DNA of 64,000 nucleotides from Salinisphaera sp. GTDB lineage: Bacteria; Pseudomonadota; Gammaproteobacteria; Nevskiales; Salinisphaeraceae. Made by a program: the position numbers and the translations under genes. Shown piece by piece: positions 12,065 through 44,028 of the stretch. How positions within the stretch are numbered: the stretch's first letter is position 1; each line of letters opens with the position of its first letter. The stretch lies in NCBI RefSeq assembly GCF_002729955.1, contig NZ_PBYA01000027.1:124001-188000 (forward strand), given 5' to 3'. The notes below the pieces were generated by a model, which was not told where the DNA came from, did not search any database, and was given only the letters and a program-made list of their open reading frames with translations.

Positions 12065-12255
12065 GCCCCTTCCGTCACTGAACCTGAGAGATTCACCCAC
12101 GGCCGAGCCACCGTGTGCTTGCTCCTTCGGTGCACGCGACCCCGCGGCCGCGCGACTCTTCGGATATGGCCGCGATAACGGTCCGTGGTGCCTGAGAGTT
12201 TCCGGGGCGGTTGCTCCTTCGGCGCCGGCGCTCGCGCACCGATCTCTCCCACTAT
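12065..12255 (-). ncRNA. Tandem glycine riboswitch (two aptamers) in the leader of the dadA-like gene
   Basis: Two consecutive glycine-aptamer cores read on the minus strand. Aptamer I (about 12255-12178) contains GGGAGAGA, then GGCGCCGAAGGAGCAACC, then ACTCTCAGGCACCACGGACC. Aptamer II (about 12163-12070) contains GTGCACCGAAGGAGCAAGCA, then GAATCTCTCAGGTTCAGTGA. The CCGAAGGRGCAA loop followed by CTCTCAGG is the diagnostic core of the glycine class, and the head-to-tail pair with a short linker is the cooperative tandem form. The leader ends about 50 nt before the ATG at 12013. Boundaries are approximate; class assignment is firm. Confidence 0.93.
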
Positions 12256-12362
12256 CGCGTTGAGGTTGTAGAACTGATGGTCGTATACAGCTCGATATGA
12301 CATCGCCGGCAGCGGTGTTCAAGATCGATAACAGTTTATTCAAGATACCACGAGCAATCGTC

Positions 12363-31620: not shown

Positions 31621-32049
31621 ATGCGCGCTATCCGTTTTTCCTTTCTGGCCCTGCTCATTGCCGTCGCGCTCTTCGGCTGTGCGGGTACGCCGACATTCAT
31701 GCAGCTGGCCGATACCAAATGGCAGCTGACCCAGCTCGACGGCCAGCCCGTGGATACCCAGTCCATGCGGCGCACGCCCTATCTGTTGCTGCATGCCGAT
31801 CAGCGCCTCGAAGGTTTCACCGGCTGCAACCGGGTCAACGGCCGCTATAGCGGCAGCGACGACACCCTGCGCTTTGATTCTTTGGCCAGCACCCGCCGCT
31901 ACTGCAATCAGGGCATGGATATCGAAGAAGCCTTCACGCACGCGCTCGAACGCACCCAGCACGCCGAAATCGACGGCGACAGTCTGGCGCTGATCGACGC
32001 CCGGGGCCATATCGCCGCCCGCCTGGCGCGCGACAGCGCCGGCCGCTGA
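31621..32049 (+). CDS. META-domain lipoprotein, HslJ-like
   Basis: 142 aa. A lipobox (LIAVALFGC, Cys20) follows the signal segment. The META/HslJ domain shows KWQLTQLDGQPV, then PYLLLHADQRLEGFTGCNRV and RRYCNQGMDIEEAFTHAL, with the conserved GxxGCNR core. In E. coli HslJ is a heat-inducible outer-membrane protein linked to novobiocin resistance. A large inverted repeat follows its stop (32054-32114). Confidence 0.93.
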   Translation: MRAIRFSFLALLIAVALFGCAGTPTFMQLADTKWQLTQLDGQPVDTQSMRRTPYLLLHADQRLEGFTGCNRVNGRYSGSDDTLRFDSLASTRRYCNQGMDIEEAFTHALERTQHAEIDGDSLALIDARGHIAARLARDSAGR

Positions 32050-32053
32050 GCCG

Positions 32054-32114
32054 GCCCGAAAGCGACGCTATCGAATCGATCGCACAGACCTGCGCCACAG
32101 GCCCGCTTTCGGGC
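32054..32114. repeat. Long stem-loop after the META lipoprotein gene
   Basis: GCCCGAAAGCG (32054-32064) pairs perfectly with CGCTTTCGGGC (32104-32114) across a 39-nt loop. No T-run follows on either strand, so it is not a standard terminator. Confidence 0.7.
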
Positions 32115-32259
32115 TGAAAACACGGACCCATGGCAGCAGGACAAGCGCGCCCCATCGTCAGCCCGGCCATACGCCACCCGCACATCAGCTAGCGAAGCGC
32201 CGGGCTGACGGGCGTTGGCGCCGCTGAATCGTTTCCGGGGGTAGCCACTGCTGTATTAA

Positions 32260-32275
32260 CTGTATATAAATACAG
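32260..32275. promoter_or_regulatory. LexA-binding site (SOS box) of imuA-imuB-dnaE2
   Basis: CTGTATATAAATACAG matches the gammaproteobacterial LexA consensus CTGT-N8-ACAG with an A/T-only centre, and flanking bases extend the symmetry (AACTGT...ACAGTT). It ends two bases before the imuA ATG at 32278 and overlaps a TATAAAT that would serve as the -10. LexA bound here would block transcription outright; RecA-driven LexA cleavage would induce the cassette. Confidence 0.93.
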
Positions 32276-32277
32276 TT

Positions 32278-33072
32278 ATGAACAAGCAGCCTATCGACAA
32301 CGTAGATCCGCACGGCCAGCGACTGGCCGCCCATGAAGCCTACTGGCAACGCTTTGGCGTGCATCGGGCCTCACGGCAGGCCGAACTGCCGGCCATGGCC
32401 ACGGGCTCACCGACGCTGGATCGCCAGCTGCCCGGCGGCGGCTATCCGATCGGCGCCGTCACCGAACTGCTGTGCAAGAACGCAGGGCTGGGTGAGCTGA
32501 GCCTGCTGTTGCATGGCCTGGCTCGGCGCATGCGCGAACAGCCCAAGCGCCAGCTCGCCTTCATTGCTCCGCCGCCGACCCTGCAGGCCCCGGCGCTCAC
32601 CCAGGCCGGTATCGATTGTGCTCGGGTGCCGCTCGTGGCCTGTCGCGACGACAGCGAAAAAGTCTGGTGTGTAGAGCAGATGGCCCGGGCGAATGCGTTT
32701 GCCGGCTTCGTCGTCTGGGCCGATCACCTCGATACAACCGCCCTGCGTCGCCTGCAGCTGGCCGCCGAGAAGGCGGCCTGCCCGGTGTTTGTCTATCGTC
32801 ATATCCGGGCGGCCGCAGAGCGCTCGCCGGCGGCCCTGCGTCTGGCGATCACCGCCGGGGACGGCGGCCAGCGTATCGAGATACTCAAATGCCGAGGCCC
32901 CGCCGGCGCACGTATTGCCGGGCTACAGCCCGGTGTCGAATGCGTCTGGCAATTCGAGACACCCCGTGCCGAGCTGGCAGCACTGCGCGCAGGCGCCAGC
33001 AACGATATTCCTCAACCCGATCGTGTTCCCCATGTGGCTCGCTCTTCGTCTTCCCCACTGGGCGCTCGATAG
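32278..33072 (+). CDS. imuA: SOS mutasome accessory protein ImuA
   Basis: 264 aa, RecA/SulA-like accessory factor of damage-induced mutagenesis. The block SPTLDRQLPGGGYPIGAVTE matches ImuA, but the following segment (LLCKNAGLGELSLLLHGLAR) lacks a canonical Walker A, as is usual for the family. In Caulobacter and mycobacteria the equivalent partner works with ImuB and DnaE2 at lesions. A LexA box lies directly upstream. The ATG at 32278 has no Shine-Dalgarno because the LexA site fills that space, suggesting a leaderless message. The 3' end overlaps imuB by 41 nt. Confidence 0.92.
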   Translation: MNKQPIDNVDPHGQRLAAHEAYWQRFGVHRASRQAELPAMATGSPTLDRQLPGGGYPIGAVTELLCKNAGLGELSLLLHGLARRMREQPKRQLAFIAPPPTLQAPALTQAGIDCARVPLVACRDDSEKVWCVEQMARANAFAGFVVWADHLDTTALRRLQLAAEKAACPVFVYRHIRAAAERSPAALRLAITAGDGGQRIEILKCRGPAGARIAGLQPGVECVWQFETPRAELAALRAGASNDIPQPDRVPHVARSSSSPLGAR

Positions 33073-34462
33073 CCGCGCCGACGCCAGCGACCGGCCGCCG
33101 GGTACCAACCCGACGCTGGTGGTGGCCGAACAGCGCGGCCGGCGTCATGTCGTGGCGGCCGACGCCTGGGCGCTCGAACAGGGCGTACGCCGCGGCATGC
33201 TGCTGGCCGATGCACGCATGCGCGTTCCCGAGGCTGCGGTGCTCACACGCCATATTGCCGGCGAAGTCGCCGCGCTCGAACGCCTGGGCGGCTGGGCCTG
33301 GCATTACAGCAGCCAGGTCCATATCGCACGGGCCAGCGATCGTATCGAATGCGCACGCGTGGTATTCGAAATCGGGGCCAGCCTGCGTCTGTTCGGCGGT
33401 CGCCAGCGCCTGCTCGAACGCGTACGTGCCGACCTCGACCGCATGGGCTATCGCTATACCCTGGGCGTGGGCGACAGCCCGCATGCCGCCCTGGCCTTTG
33501 CACGCGCGCCCTCGCCCAAACATCGCGCAAAGGGCCTGGCCGGTCTGCCTCTGACCTGTCTGGATCTGGACGCCCAGACCACGCTATCGCTCAAGGCCAG
33601 CGGGCTGCGTCTTGCCGGTGAACTGCTGGCCCTGCCGCCGGGCACCCTGGTACGTCGCTATGGCAAGCACACGCTGGACGAACTGGAGCGTCTGCGCGGG
33701 CGCCGGCCACACGGACTGGATTTCTATACCCTGCCGCAACGCTATGGCACCCGTCACGAACTCACCGGCGCGGTGGAAACGACCCAGGGCCTGGTATTCG
33801 TGCTGCGGCGCGTGTTCGCCGAGCTGGCCGCGTTTCTGCAGGGCGCGGATGCCACCATCCAGACGCTGCAGCTCAAGCTCATTCACGACGAGCTGCCGCC
33901 CACTCGCCTGCTGCTGCGCCTGGCCGCACCCTCGCGTGATGCGGACCATCTGGAGCGCGTCGCCAACGAACGGCTGGCCCGGGTCACGCTGGCGGCACCG
34001 GTCCTTGAAATCGCGCTGGCCAGCGATCGCCTGCGTCGTTTCGAACAGGATCAGGACAGCCTGTGGCGCGACCCCGACCATGCCGGTATCGAACAATGGC
34101 CGGCCGTGCTCGATCGCCTGCGCGCCCGGCTGGGCCACGAGGCGGTGGGCTGGCTGCATGACGTGGACGACCACCGCCCGGAACAGGCCAGCGCCCGCCA
34201 TGACCGGCCGGCCACGAGCCATACCCCTGTGTCGGCCCCACGCCCGATGTGGCTGCTCGACGTGCCCGAACGCGCGCCGGCCGAGCTGACCCTGATCGCC
34301 GGCCCGGAACGTATCGAAACCGGCTGGTGGGAGCACAGCATCCGGCGCGATTATTTTCGCGCCCGCGACGGCCAGGGGCGCCTGCTCTGGGTCTATCGCG
34401 ATCTGGCCCATGCCCACAGCAGCGATACGCCGGTCTACTACATGCACGGCCTGTTCGGATGA
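33032..34462 (+). CDS. imuB: Y-family polymerase-like protein ImuB
   Basis: 476 aa. The ORF is open upstream, but family alignment starts at MWLALRLPHWALD (33032). It has the Y-family palm/fingers fold and the LRRVFAELAAFLQGAD region of the little-finger/C-domain. The acidic catalytic residues of active Y-family polymerases are missing: the N-terminal aspartates are replaced (LRLPHWALD) and the usual DE pair reads VFEIGASLRLFGG. It is therefore a non-catalytic scaffold that recruits DnaE2 and the clamp, as known for ImuB. Its TGA overlaps the dnaE2 ATG (ATGA). Confidence 0.94.
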   Translation: MWLALRLPHWALDSRADASDRPPGTNPTLVVAEQRGRRHVVAADAWALEQGVRRGMLLADARMRVPEAAVLTRHIAGEVAALERLGGWAWHYSSQVHIARASDRIECARVVFEIGASLRLFGGRQRLLERVRADLDRMGYRYTLGVGDSPHAALAFARAPSPKHRAKGLAGLPLTCLDLDAQTTLSLKASGLRLAGELLALPPGTLVRRYGKHTLDELERLRGRRPHGLDFYTLPQRYGTRHELTGAVETTQGLVFVLRRVFAELAAFLQGADATIQTLQLKLIHDELPPTRLLLRLAAPSRDADHLERVANERLARVTLAAPVLEIALASDRLRRFEQDQDSLWRDPDHAGIEQWPAVLDRLRARLGHEAVGWLHDVDDHRPEQASARHDRPATSHTPVSAPRPMWLLDVPERAPAELTLIAGPERIETGWWEHSIRRDYFRARDGQGRLLWVYRDLAHAHSSDTPVYYMHGLFG

Positions 34463-37400
34463 GCGCGCTCGGCTATGCCGAGCTGTGCTGTGTGAGCGGT
34501 TTTTCCTTCCAGCGCGGCGCCTCCACGCCGGAAGAGTTGGTCGCCCGCGCGGCCGAACTCGGCTATCGAGCGATCGCGCTGACCGACGAATGCAGCCTGG
34601 CCGGCGCGGTACGGGCCCTGCAGACCGCCGAAGCCTGCGCTATCGATCTGATCCTGGGCAGTCGTTTCACCCTCGACGAGGGCGTGACCGTCGTCCTGCT
34701 GGTACGCAACCGCAACGGCTATACCCGCCTGTGCCGGCTGATCACCGATGCCCGGCAACGCGTGGCCAAGGGCGACTACCGTATCGGCCTGGCCGATCTG
34801 CAGGCCGATACCCTGGCCGACTGCCGTATTCTGGTCCTGCCTGATTACGACTGTCCGCCCGGCCCCGCGCTGCATCATCTGCTGGCCTGGCTGGCCACCA
34901 CCTACCCGCGCCAGAGTCATATCGCACTGGCGCTGCATCGACGCGCCGCCGATATGGCGCACCGACGCCGGCTCGATGAACTGCGGGCCCGATACGGCCT
35001 GCCGCTGGTCGCGGTGGGCGATGTCCATATGCACCGACGCTCGCGGCGTGCCTTACAGGATGTATTTACCGCCCTGCGTCTGGGCACGACGGTGCACAAC
35101 GCCGGGCGGGCCTTGTTCGCCAACGGCGAACGCTATCTGCGGCCGCGCTCGACGCTGGCCGCCCTCTATCCCGACGAGACGCTGGCCGCGACCCTGCGTA
35201 TCGCCGCCGATTGCAGGTTTTCCCTGCGCGAAATCCGCTACGACTATCCTTCCGAAGTGGTGCCGCAGGGCCAGACCGCGCTCGAGCATCTACGCACCCT
35301 GGTGGAGCGCGGCTGCCAGCGGCGCTGGCCCGAGGGCACGAATGCCACGATACGTCGCCAGATCGAGCACGAACTCGCGCTGATCGAGGAAAAGAACTAT
35401 CCGCATTATTTTCTGACCGTTCACGATATTGTCGAAGAAGCGAATCGACGCGGCATTCTCTGTCAGGGCCGCGGCTCGGCCGCCAATTCGGTGGTGTGTT
35501 TCTGCCTGGGCATCACCGAAGTGGATCCGCTTCGCCACGACATGCTCTTCGAGCGTTTCATCTCGCGCGATCGCAACGAACCGCCGGATATCGACGTCGA
35601 CTTCGAGCACGAACGCCGCGAAGAAATCATCCAGTACATCTATCGCCGGTACGGCCGCCAGCGCGCCGCGCTCGCTGCCACCGTCATCCATTATCGACCG
35701 CGCAGCGCGATGCGCGACGTCGGCCGCGCCATGGGGCTGAGCGTCGATCAGATCGACACCCTGGCCGGCGCGCTGTCGCGGCGCAGTGATGACGGCAGCC
35801 TGGCCGCCCAGCTCGATGAACGCGGTATCGATATCGACACCGACGATCTCGATCGTATTCTCATGCTGGTGGATACGCTCATCGGGTTTCCCCGCCATCT
35901 GTCCCAGCATGTTGGCGGTTTCGTGCTTTCCGAAGTGCCGCTGGAGCAGCTGGTGCCCGTGGAAAAGGCGGCCATGCCCGATCGCACCATCATTCAGTGG
36001 GACAAGGACGATCTGGAAGCGGTCGGCCTGATGAAGATCGACGTGCTCGCACTCGGCATGCTCAGCTGCCTGCGCCGCTGTTTCGCGCTTATCGAGCGTC
36101 ATCACGGTCGCCGGCTGACCATGGCCACCATTCCCGGCAAGGACAAGGCCACCTACGACATGATTTCGGCCGCCGATACGGTCGGCGTATTCCAGATCGA
36201 GTCGCGTGCCCAGATGACCATGCTGCCGCGGCTGCGCCCCCAGCGGTTTTTCGATCTGGTGGTCGAGGTGGCGATCGTACGCCCTGGCCCGATCCAGGGC
36301 GGCATGGTCCATCCCTACCTGCTCAACCGCGAAAAGAAGCGCGAAGAGATCGAATACCCCAGCGAAGCCCTGCGCGGCGTGCTCGAACGCACCCACGGCG
36401 TGCCGATCTTTCAGGAACAGGTAATGAAGATCGCCATGGTCGCTGCAAGCTTCAGTGCCGGCGAGGCCGACGGCCTGCGTCGTTCAATGGCTGCCTGGAA
36501 GAAGAAAGGCGGCCTCGAGCCCTGGCGCGAACGCTTGAAAAGCGGCATGCGCGCCAACGGCTATGCCGAGGACTTCGCCGATCGGATCTTCGAACAAATC
36601 AAGGGGTTCGGCAGCTACGGCTTTCCGGAATCCCATGCCGTGAGTTTTGCCCTGCTCGTCTATGTCTCCTCGTATATCAAATGCCACTATCCGGCCGCCT
36701 TCGCGGCCGCCCTGATCAACAGCCAGCCCATGGGTTTCTATGCGCCGGCCCAGATCGTGGCCGATCTCAAGCGACACGGGGTGCAGGTCTACCCCATCGA
36801 TGTCTGTCATTCCGACTGGGAGTGCACGCTCGAACACGGCAACGACGAAGAAGCGGCTGTGGCCCTGCGTCTGGGCCTGCGCCTGGTCAAAGGGCTTTCC
36901 CGGGACGCCGGCGAGCGTATCGTCGCGGCTCGCAGCACCGCTGCGTTCACCCAGGTGGCAGACCTGGTCAATCGGGCCCGGCTGGGCCAGCGCTCCCGCG
37001 ATGCCCTGGCCCGGGCCGATGCCCTGCGCGGGCTGGCCGGGCACCGCCATCAGGCGCAGTGGCAGATCGCGGCCGCCCATGTGCATGCCGATCTGTTTGC
37101 CGGGCTCGACGCGCCCGAACCCGACGTGGATTTACCGGCGCCGAAGGAAGGCAGCGATATCGTGGCCGACTATGCCAGTACCGCCCTGACCCTGCGCCGG
37201 CATCCGCTGGCACTGCTGCGCCCGCAGCTGGCCCGCCAGGGCGTGCTCTGTGCCCGCGATTTCGATGCCCTGGCCGATCGTCGTGCCGCCCACGTCGCCG
37301 GCCTGGTCACGATCCGCCAGCGCCCGGGCAGCGCCAAGGGCACGACCTTCGTCACCCTCGAAGACGAAACCGGCTGCGTGAACGTGGTCATTCACCGCGA

Positions 37401-37563
37401 CCTGCTCGCCCGCTATCGCGTGGCCGTTACCAGCGCCCGGCTGCTCCGGGTCAACGGCATCATGCAGCGCCATGGGCCGGTCACCCACTGCGTGGCCCGG
37501 CATATCGTCGACGACAGTGCTCGACTCGGGAAACTGACCACTTGGTCCCGCGATTTCCATTGA
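34459..37563 (+). CDS. dnaE2: Error-prone DNA polymerase III alpha subunit DnaE2
   Basis: 1034 aa, the usual DnaE2 length. The N-terminal PHP domain begins YAELCCVSGFSFQRGASTPE (the family more often shows ELHC). The polymerase active-site aspartates are in PPDIDVDFEHERRE and LMKIDVLALGML. Helix-hairpin-helix and OB regions follow. It performs error-prone synthesis past lesions with ImuA and ImuB. The start is ATG at 34459, overlapping the imuB stop, so the three genes form one SOS operon under the LexA box at 32260. No terminator is visible right after the stop; an AT-rich island follows. Confidence 0.96.
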   Translation: MSALGYAELCCVSGFSFQRGASTPEELVARAAELGYRAIALTDECSLAGAVRALQTAEACAIDLILGSRFTLDEGVTVVLLVRNRNGYTRLCRLITDARQRVAKGDYRIGLADLQADTLADCRILVLPDYDCPPGPALHHLLAWLATTYPRQSHIALALHRRAADMAHRRRLDELRARYGLPLVAVGDVHMHRRSRRALQDVFTALRLGTTVHNAGRALFANGERYLRPRSTLAALYPDETLAATLRIAADCRFSLREIRYDYPSEVVPQGQTALEHLRTLVERGCQRRWPEGTNATIRRQIEHELALIEEKNYPHYFLTVHDIVEEANRRGILCQGRGSAANSVVCFCLGITEVDPLRHDMLFERFISRDRNEPPDIDVDFEHERREEIIQYIYRRYGRQRAALAATVIHYRPRSAMRDVGRAMGLSVDQIDTLAGALSRRSDDGSLAAQLDERGIDIDTDDLDRILMLVDTLIGFPRHLSQHVGGFVLSEVPLEQLVPVEKAAMPDRTIIQWDKDDLEAVGLMKIDVLALGMLSCLRRCFALIERHHGRRLTMATIPGKDKATYDMISAADTVGVFQIESRAQMTMLPRLRPQRFFDLVVEVAIVRPGPIQGGMVHPYLLNREKKREEIEYPSEALRGVLERTHGVPIFQEQVMKIAMVAASFSAGEADGLRRSMAAWKKKGGLEPWRERLKSGMRANGYAEDFADRIFEQIKGFGSYGFPESHAVSFALLVYVSSYIKCHYPAAFAAALINSQPMGFYAPAQIVADLKRHGVQVYPIDVCHSDWECTLEHGNDEEAAVALRLGLRLVKGLSRDAGERIVAARSTAAFTQVADLVNRARLGQRSRDALARADALRGLAGHRHQAQWQIAAAHVHADLFAGLDAPEPDVDLPAPKEGSDIVADYASTALTLRRHPLALLRPQLARQGVLCARDFDALADRRAAHVAGLVTIRQRPGSAKGTTFVTLEDETGCVNVVIHRDLLARYRVAVTSARLLRVNGIMQRHGPVTHCVARHIVDDSARLGKLTTWSRDFH

Positions 37564-42630: not shown

Positions 42631-42775
42631 GGCGCGCGATAATAGGGGCGAAAGCCCGCCAAGTCAAAGCATTTCGCCGTTTCACTCCTGGCTGGCGCCA
42701 TGCACGACGCCCGCAGATGGTATGACCGATCGTTTATCCTTTGGCCGCCAGAGATTCGCTGACAAAGGACCCCGC

Positions 42776-43369: not shown

Positions 43370-44028
43370 GCGCTACGCCGCTCGCTGGCGAGCCAGTCCG
43401 GCAGCGTTTCCACGCTGTCGAGCACTTCGAGCGCTCCCGCGCGCAGTAAACGCGCGGCATCATGAACCCCGCAGCCCACGCCTATGGCATCCACGCCGGC
43501 CGCCCGCGCCATGGCGACATCGTATTCGGTGTCGCCAATCATGAGCGCATGCTCGGGCAGCGTGGCCGAACGCAAGAGAATGTTCTCGATCATGTCCGGG
43601 GCGGGTTTGGGCGTGCACTCGTCGGCACAGCGAGTCCAACGGAAATAGTCCTCGGTGCCGGTCGAGCGCATGGCGGAGTCCAACCCGCGCCGACTTTTAC
43701 CCGTCGCCACCGCCATCTCGAAACCCTGTGCCTTGAGTGTCTCGAGCGCCTCCAGCACCGGTGGGAACAGCTTCGCGGCACTGCGTTTCATTCCATAGCG
43801 CGCGCGGTAGGCGTGCACGCGTGCGCGTACACGCTGTGTGTCCAGGTCGGGAAACAGGCGCGCCAGGACGTCGTCCAGTCCGAGGCCGATCAGCTCACGC
43901 ATTCGATCCGGGGAGCGTTCGGGCAGACCCAGATCCTGAATCGCGTTCTGCATGGCCGAAACGATCTCGCCCGCCGAGTCCATCAGGGTGCCGTCCCAGT
44001 CGAATACCAGCAGTTCGTATCGTTTCAT
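43366..44028 (-). CDS. HAD-family hydrolase, phosphoglycolate phosphatase-like
   Basis: 220 aa. HAD motif I is VFDWDGTLMDSAGE, with the nucleophile and acid Asp. Motif II is in VATGKSRRGLD, the motif III Lys in CTPKPAPDMIEN, and motif IV in MIGDTEYDVAMARAAG. A helical cap (LPERSPDRMRELIGLGLDDV) makes it subclass IA, as in Gph/PGM-like enzymes. A HAD gene in this exact place (next to rluC) is conserved in Pseudomonas. ATG at 44028 overlaps the rluC stop (ATGA at 44025-44028). Confidence 0.93.
   Translation of the reverse strand: MKRYELLVFDWDGTLMDSAGEIVSAMQNAIQDLGLPERSPDRMRELIGLGLDDVLARLFPDLDTQRVRARVHAYRARYGMKRSAAKLFPPVLEALETLKAQGFEMAVATGKSRRGLDSAMRSTGTEDYFRWTRCADECTPKPAPDMIENILLRSATLPEHALMIGDTEYDVAMARAAGVDAIGVGCGVHDAARLLRAGALEVLDSVETLPDWLASERRSA

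Follow-up and report, generated by a model that had tools for sequence, protein, structure and literature searches.

A LexA box that abuts the start codon of imuA in Salinisphaera and probably gives rise to a leaderless SOS transcript

The cI gene of phage lambda is the classic case of a leaderless mRNA. According to the accessible portions of the respective reports, the mRNA of setR from the SXT/R391 elements is leaderless (PMC4542580), and at lexA of Mycobacterium tuberculosis the start codon was identified by experiment as the transcription start, which makes that mRNA leaderless as well (PMC2897130); taken together, these three genes mean that leaderless, damage-controlled repressors are already known. 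The M. tuberculosis lexA is comparable to the Salinisphaera system described here in that both concern an SOS gene with a leaderless mRNA (predicted from sequence in our case), but it belongs to an actinobacterium, a group in which leaderless mRNAs are common, and the accessible portion of that report describes no LexA box serving as the -10 element at the start codon (PMC2897130). Similarly, setR and lambda cI share with our reading the leaderless mRNA, there of a damage-controlled repressor of the LexA-peptidase type, but they are mobile-element and phage repressors without LexA boxes, and not a chromosomal translesion polymerase cassette. Other LexA-regulated imuA-imuB-dnaE2 cassettes have the gene order, the ImuA family and the upstream LexA box in common with the present one. 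They differ in the position of the box: in a set of 59 imuA genes from 57 genomes that belong to the order but not to the genus, five have a perfect box in the 300 nt upstream, located 7-38 nt from the start, and none of the 59 has a box with at most one mismatch that ends 4 nt or less before the likely start.

Descriptions of LexA control usually treat it as a matter of transcription alone. If box, promoter and start codon were one unit, however, the operator would evolve in connection with the length of the leader and with how the mRNA is translated. Among the literature matches listed (titles and the beginnings of abstracts, with the subscription literature mostly outside), there was no report on the SOS response of Salinisphaera or on a leaderless lexA or imuA in Gammaproteobacteria, and none on a LexA box in this class that acts at once as operator, as -10 element and as the boundary 5' of the start codon.

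The window analyzed is a stretch of 64,000 nt from a Salinisphaera genome (G000 in our set; contig NZ_PBYA01000027.1, positions 124,001 to 188,000). The reading frame that begins at ATG 32278 encodes ImuA (264 aa; 32278..33072, + strand; NF033429 ImuA_translesion, 174 bits, cut-off 150) and is the first gene of an imuA-imuB-dnaE2 cassette. It is overlapped by the imuB reading frame, which is Y-family polymerase-like (32693..34462, + strand, coordinates that denote an open frame and not an assigned start; Pfam IMS, 29.1 bits, cut-off 23.2), and for which no NCBIfam model scored above its own cut-off. The reading frame of dnaE2 (imuC), the error-prone polymerase, follows at 34249..37563 (NF004225, 1445.6 bits, cut-off 939); its family match runs from residue 74 on, and position 34249 is the edge of the frame, not an assigned start. 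The ImuB-like and DnaE2 frames thus both lie downstream of imuA, and all three are on the + strand. On the upstream side, an in-frame stop codon (TAA, 32257-32259) closes the imuA frame, and ATG 32278 is for this reason its first ATG, GTG or TTG. A CTG at 32260, within the LexA box, is also in frame, and was discarded as a start, not being one of these three codons. Further upstream, the gap that precedes imuA contains two long inverted repeats recognizable by eye (window 32060-32210), GCCCGAAAGC...GCTTTCGGGC and CGTCAGCCCGG...CCGGGCTGACG.

The first-pass annotation of this DNA had placed a LexA box, with a TATAAAT inside it, two bases before ATG 32278, and direct reading of the sequence confirms these positions: the box CTGTATATAAATACAG occupies 32260..32275 (+ strand) and is followed by TT (32276-32277) and then by the ATG. 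It forms the center of an extended near-palindrome of 20 bases (32258-32277) with perfect 8-bp arms, which departs at 3/20 positions from the Escherichia coli LexA consensus. The half-site pattern carries little information by itself. In the window, CTGT-N8-ACAG with at most one mismatch has 17 matches, compared with 12.7 expected, and 11/100 shuffled sequences reach 17; genome-wide, perfect sites number 20, versus 28 for the reversed control pattern. With counts at or below chance, the bare pattern was dropped as a regulon finder, and inspection of 18 other such sites in the genome gave no second clear gene that abuts its box. Instead, it is conservation that sets the imuA box apart from chance.

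As the first-pass annotation had proposed, we compared the imuA upstream regions of relatives, and the layout of box and ATG is present in all of them. The block WACTGTATATAAATACARTY-ATG is kept in 14/14 Salinisphaera genomes searched, with 0-2 mismatches over 23 bases, and the box lies two nt before the ATG in every one, while the codons downstream diverge. The 16-base box itself is identical in 13 of these genomes and has one change in the other, G006 (CTGTATATAAATACAA). Mean column information over the 14 genomes (including G007, in which imuA is split over two contig pieces) is 1.89 bits at -20..-1, compared with 0.34 bits at -60..-43 and 0.44 bits in the coding columns after the ATG up to +60. 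Because some of the genomes are closely related (G000/G005/G007, G003/G004, and G002/G006/G008), the 14 are not independent, and represent approximately eight lineages as judged by eye. A half-repeat at 32251 (CTGTATTAA), considered as a second LexA site, was dropped, since it is present only in G000 and G007.

The same block contains a putative promoter core. A -10-like hexamer, TATAAA, lies within the box (32265..32270, + strand; with the following T, 32265-32271) and ends 8 nt short of the A of the ATG, and a -35-like hexamer, TAGCCA (32242..32247, + strand), lies 17 bp upstream of it, for a pair score of 10.6. In all 14 genomes, columns -36..-31 read TNGNCA (with T, G, C, and A invariant), the spacing from there to the TATAAA in the box is exactly 17 bp, the -10 ends 8 nt from the A of the ATG, and position -1 is T or C. 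Given this distance and the pyrimidine-A step at -1/+1, transcription is expected to start at the A of the ATG (32278, + strand) or alternatively one base earlier (T 32277). The proposal that LexA would cover the promoter core is borne out, in that the predicted -10 lies inside the box; the companion proposal, of a transcription start at or next to the ATG, agrees with the best-fitting promoter and has the standing of a prediction.

In a sigma-70 promoter scan with hand-entered weights, no pair between -200 and +30 outscores the box promoter in 13/14 genomes (scores 9.8 to 11.4), and the remaining genome, G011, has a higher-scoring pair at -124 of imuA. A score of 10.6 with a -10 ending at -9..-7 was matched at 5/2000 random window positions. 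When random 230-nt stretches were drawn from the window, their best scores had a mean of 5.6 and a 95th percentile of 9.3, and because the imuA scores are only moderately above this percentile, the promoter is considered to be of moderate strength. A separate consensus scan of 31900-32600 gave no match, as it required T at the last -10 position, where imuA has A.

The start codon of imuA is ATG in 14/14 genomes, and the reported lack of a Shine-Dalgarno (SD) sequence before it is upheld: the anti-SD energy at -20..-4 in the window is +0.8, with a mean of -2.6 for random window 17-mers as reference. Comparison of G000 with G005 over the first 30 imuA codons places 15/24 substitutions at codon position 3, a bias which suggests that the frame is translated from ATG 32278 on. 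In the predicted leaderless 5' end, the AUG is unpaired with a value of 0.75, compared with an average of 0.70 for random ATGs, so that the difference is only slight; the corresponding value in G010 is 0.11.

The best reading of these features is an imuA mRNA under LexA control with a leader of 0-2 nt, and we assign a probability of roughly 0.83 to the view that the ∼40 bases at 32242-32280 combine LexA operator, promoter, and start codon in a single module from which a leaderless mRNA would arise. As long as the cell is undamaged, a LexA dimer bound at 32260-32275 would cover the -10 element and the start point, and thereby block RNA polymerase. Following DNA damage and cleavage of LexA, the polymerase would use TAGCCA-17-TATAAA and begin transcription either at the A of ATG 32278 or at the preceding base; the resulting imuA-imuB-dnaE2 mRNA would be essentially without a leader, and ImuA would be made by leaderless initiation. 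For this cassette, we infer LexA binding, the transcription start, leaderless translation, and co-transcription alike from the DNA sequence.

An alternative is that the imuA transcript begins ∼20-120 nt upstream, with box-bound LexA acting as a roadblock, and that ATG 32278 is used within a leadered mRNA that has no SD sequence. Genes without SD sequences are found in leadered mRNAs of high-GC bacteria, the better-scoring promoter of G011 is located in such a position (-124), and among the two-box lexA promoters elsewhere in the class, a second box is close to the start codon and would lie inside a leader that originates from the upstream box. We nevertheless regard an upstream start as unlikely, given that there is little conservation upstream of -42 (0.34 bits), that 13/14 genomes are without a higher-scoring promoter-like site in -200..+30, and that a -35 kept at a spacing of exactly 17 bp would have no role in it. 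It would also be conceivable that ATG 32278 is unused and that ImuA begins downstream, for instance at GTG 32359, such that the fixed distance between box and ATG has nothing to do with translation. While the NCBIfam ImuA match from residue 32 on, and the position of likely ImuA starts outside the genus, nearer to the family match, would agree with this, the ATG is at the same distance in 14/14 genomes and the third-position bias is already apparent in the first codons. The first-pass annotation had named a downstream start with a good SD sequence as a competing arrangement, and none was found at the first candidate: GTG 32359 was rejected, having a weak anti-SD energy (-1.5) and a residue that is variable in relatives (GVH, GIH, GVY, GLR). 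A downstream start thus appears very improbable.

A more serious alternative, to which we give somewhat less than even odds, is that conservation reflects LexA binding and promoter strength only, and that the placement of the box beside the ATG is left over from a compact promoter, the length of the leader (0 or a few nt) being inconsequential for expression. The block does come close to a perfect LexA palindrome, and overlap with the -10 element is common among LexA boxes; on the other hand, the 2-nt distance seen in 14/14 genomes is not needed for LexA binding, and the A of TATAAA, which is asymmetric with respect to the palindrome, is invariant as well. An mRNA without a leader is consistent with this explanation, which disputes only that leaderlessness matters.

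The first-pass annotation had described the arrangement as unusual, but the layout is not peculiar to imuA: it is shared by lexA, by a radical-SAM repair gene (rSAM_link_UDG) and, with a different promoter, by the non-SOS gene yceD. The LexA protein itself was detected in 13/14 Salinisphaera genomes, and in each of the 13, CTGGATATATTTACAG or a variant ends one base before an ATG or GTG, and the start codon begins 7 nt after the end of a -10 within the box (TATATT, TATCCT, or TATTCT). The family match to LexA, which sets in at position 1 or 2 of the model, anchors this start. In the promoter scan, the box promoter comes out best in 9/13 genomes, and takes rank 10 in G000 (the genome of the window), 5 in G005, 14 in G007, and 7 in G011. 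The start codon is ATG in 10/13 genomes and GTG in G003, G004, and G012; in E. coli, GUG serves poorly as the start codon of leaderless mRNAs. The box of lexA (G000:C34:28078-28727) is imperfect, with a CTGG or CTGC half-site in place of CTGT in 13/13 genomes, in which it is unlike the imuA box, and it may set a weaker self-repression.

The rSAM_link_UDG gene (TIGR03916) was detected in 13/14 Salinisphaera genomes, and a LexA-like box lies 1-2 nt before its ATG in all 13, although several of these boxes are imperfect and their centers vary; in G000 (G000:C21:41625-42903), the box CTGTATATAGTTACAC is 2 nt before the ATG. The box promoter ranks first in 9/13 genomes and second in the other 4/13, and the gene is likely a third member of the Salinisphaera SOS core. 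TIGR03916 corresponds to COG4277. For the COG1573-COG4277 UDG pair, the accessible portion of a comparative study gives LexA control as predicted in Bacteroidetes (PMC8565304). By contrast with these abutting boxes, G011 carries a dinB-like gene whose box precedes the ATG by 14 nt, and which represents at least one leadered SOS-type gene. No box adjoins the start of recA at the 5 genus loci inspected, and in G005 and G011 a one-mismatch box occurs 279 nt upstream of this gene. A perfect box (CTGTACGCGCATACAG) was also observed at G000:C32:42686, between divergent frames, one of which is HMCES/YedK-like by eye.

The yceD gene (PF02620; 42088-42630, - strand) has its promoter at 42631-42667, in the arrangement TTGACT-17-TATTAT-CGCGCGCC-ATG. 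In the 13/13 Salinisphaera genomes that carry the gene, TTGAC, the spacing, and CGCGCGCCATG are kept. The exact string TATNATCGCGCGCCATG occurs in 5/369 genomes of the class, 2 of them Salinisphaera. With an rrn-type discriminator of 8 nt, the transcription start would again be the A of the ATG, and the sequence marks yceD as a probable leaderless gene outside the SOS response, its GC discriminator being rrn-like. This layout raises the plausibility of leaderless translation in the genus and, at the same time, weakens any argument for its being special to the SOS response; leaderless starts in Salinisphaera are probably not restricted to SOS genes.

Outside the genus, a class-wide search for CTGTATAWNWATACAG followed by ATG within 8 nt returned 15/369 genomes. 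A distance of 2 is confined to the two Salinisphaera genomes in the sample, and a distance of 1 occurs at lexA in G221 and at the start of a DnaE2-resembling polymerase in G134 (genes named by reading the sequence, and in G221 also through the lexA search). At lexA of G081, the order is CTGTC TATAAT GACAG T ATG, again with a -10-like hexamer in the abutting box. In a first lexA sample (54 genes given and 53 analyzed, 39 with a box and 14 without; a further locus, with a stop inside the match, was left out), the box lies 1-4 nt from the start in 10/39 genes and 5-8 nt in 0/39. On the basis that lexA would be either leaderless or have room for an SD sequence, a hole at 5-8 nt was predicted for the box-to-start distances. 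The prediction failed in a wider sample, which has a dip there and no clean gap: the box lies 1-4 nt from the start in 11/95 genes and 5-8 nt in 8/95. This wider sample comprised 122 genes, mostly higher-scoring rows among the 236 genomes over the cut-off and hence not random, of which 119 were analyzed, 95 with a box (one overlapping the chosen start) and 24 without; it used a slightly different box criterion, and 16 loci are common to the first sample.

The 11 lexA genes at 1-4 nt are like those of Salinisphaera in their abutting layout and in the -10-like hexamer within the box, but they are a minority in other Gammaproteobacteria, and 4/11 are two-box promoters, for which a leader is likely. 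Among 58 single-box lexA genes, the distance is 0-4 nt in 7, 5-8 in 2, 9-13 in 4, 14-18 in 12, 19-30 in 23, and beyond that in 10. A broader scheme may be considered, in which the Salinisphaera SOS core (LexA, the ImuA-ImuB-DnaE2 mutasome, and the radical-SAM repair protein) would be expressed from leaderless, one-module mRNAs whose translation persists or is favored when damage disturbs initiation, with the module having arisen, or having been kept, in several separate gammaproteobacterial lineages. We consider this scheme doubtful, and hold a similarly skeptical view of the idea that leaderless translation as such helps during damage. The advantage suggested in the first-pass annotation, a cassette that can still respond when initiation factors run short, is a hypothetical one. 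With three such SOS genes and, in one genome, the leadered dinB-like gene, this culturable marine genus offers a setting in which the part of leaderless translation in the damage response can be tested. The abutting layout also provides a simple rule for correcting SOS start codons and for recovering missed promoters in this group.

Two further features of the window were observed. ARAGORN reports a tRNA with the stop-reading anticodon TTA at 43394-43482 (- strand), which overlaps a HAD hydrolase gene and is probably a false positive. A tandem glycine riboswitch (RF00504; 58.1 + 44.4 bits) is located at 12066-12261 (- strand).
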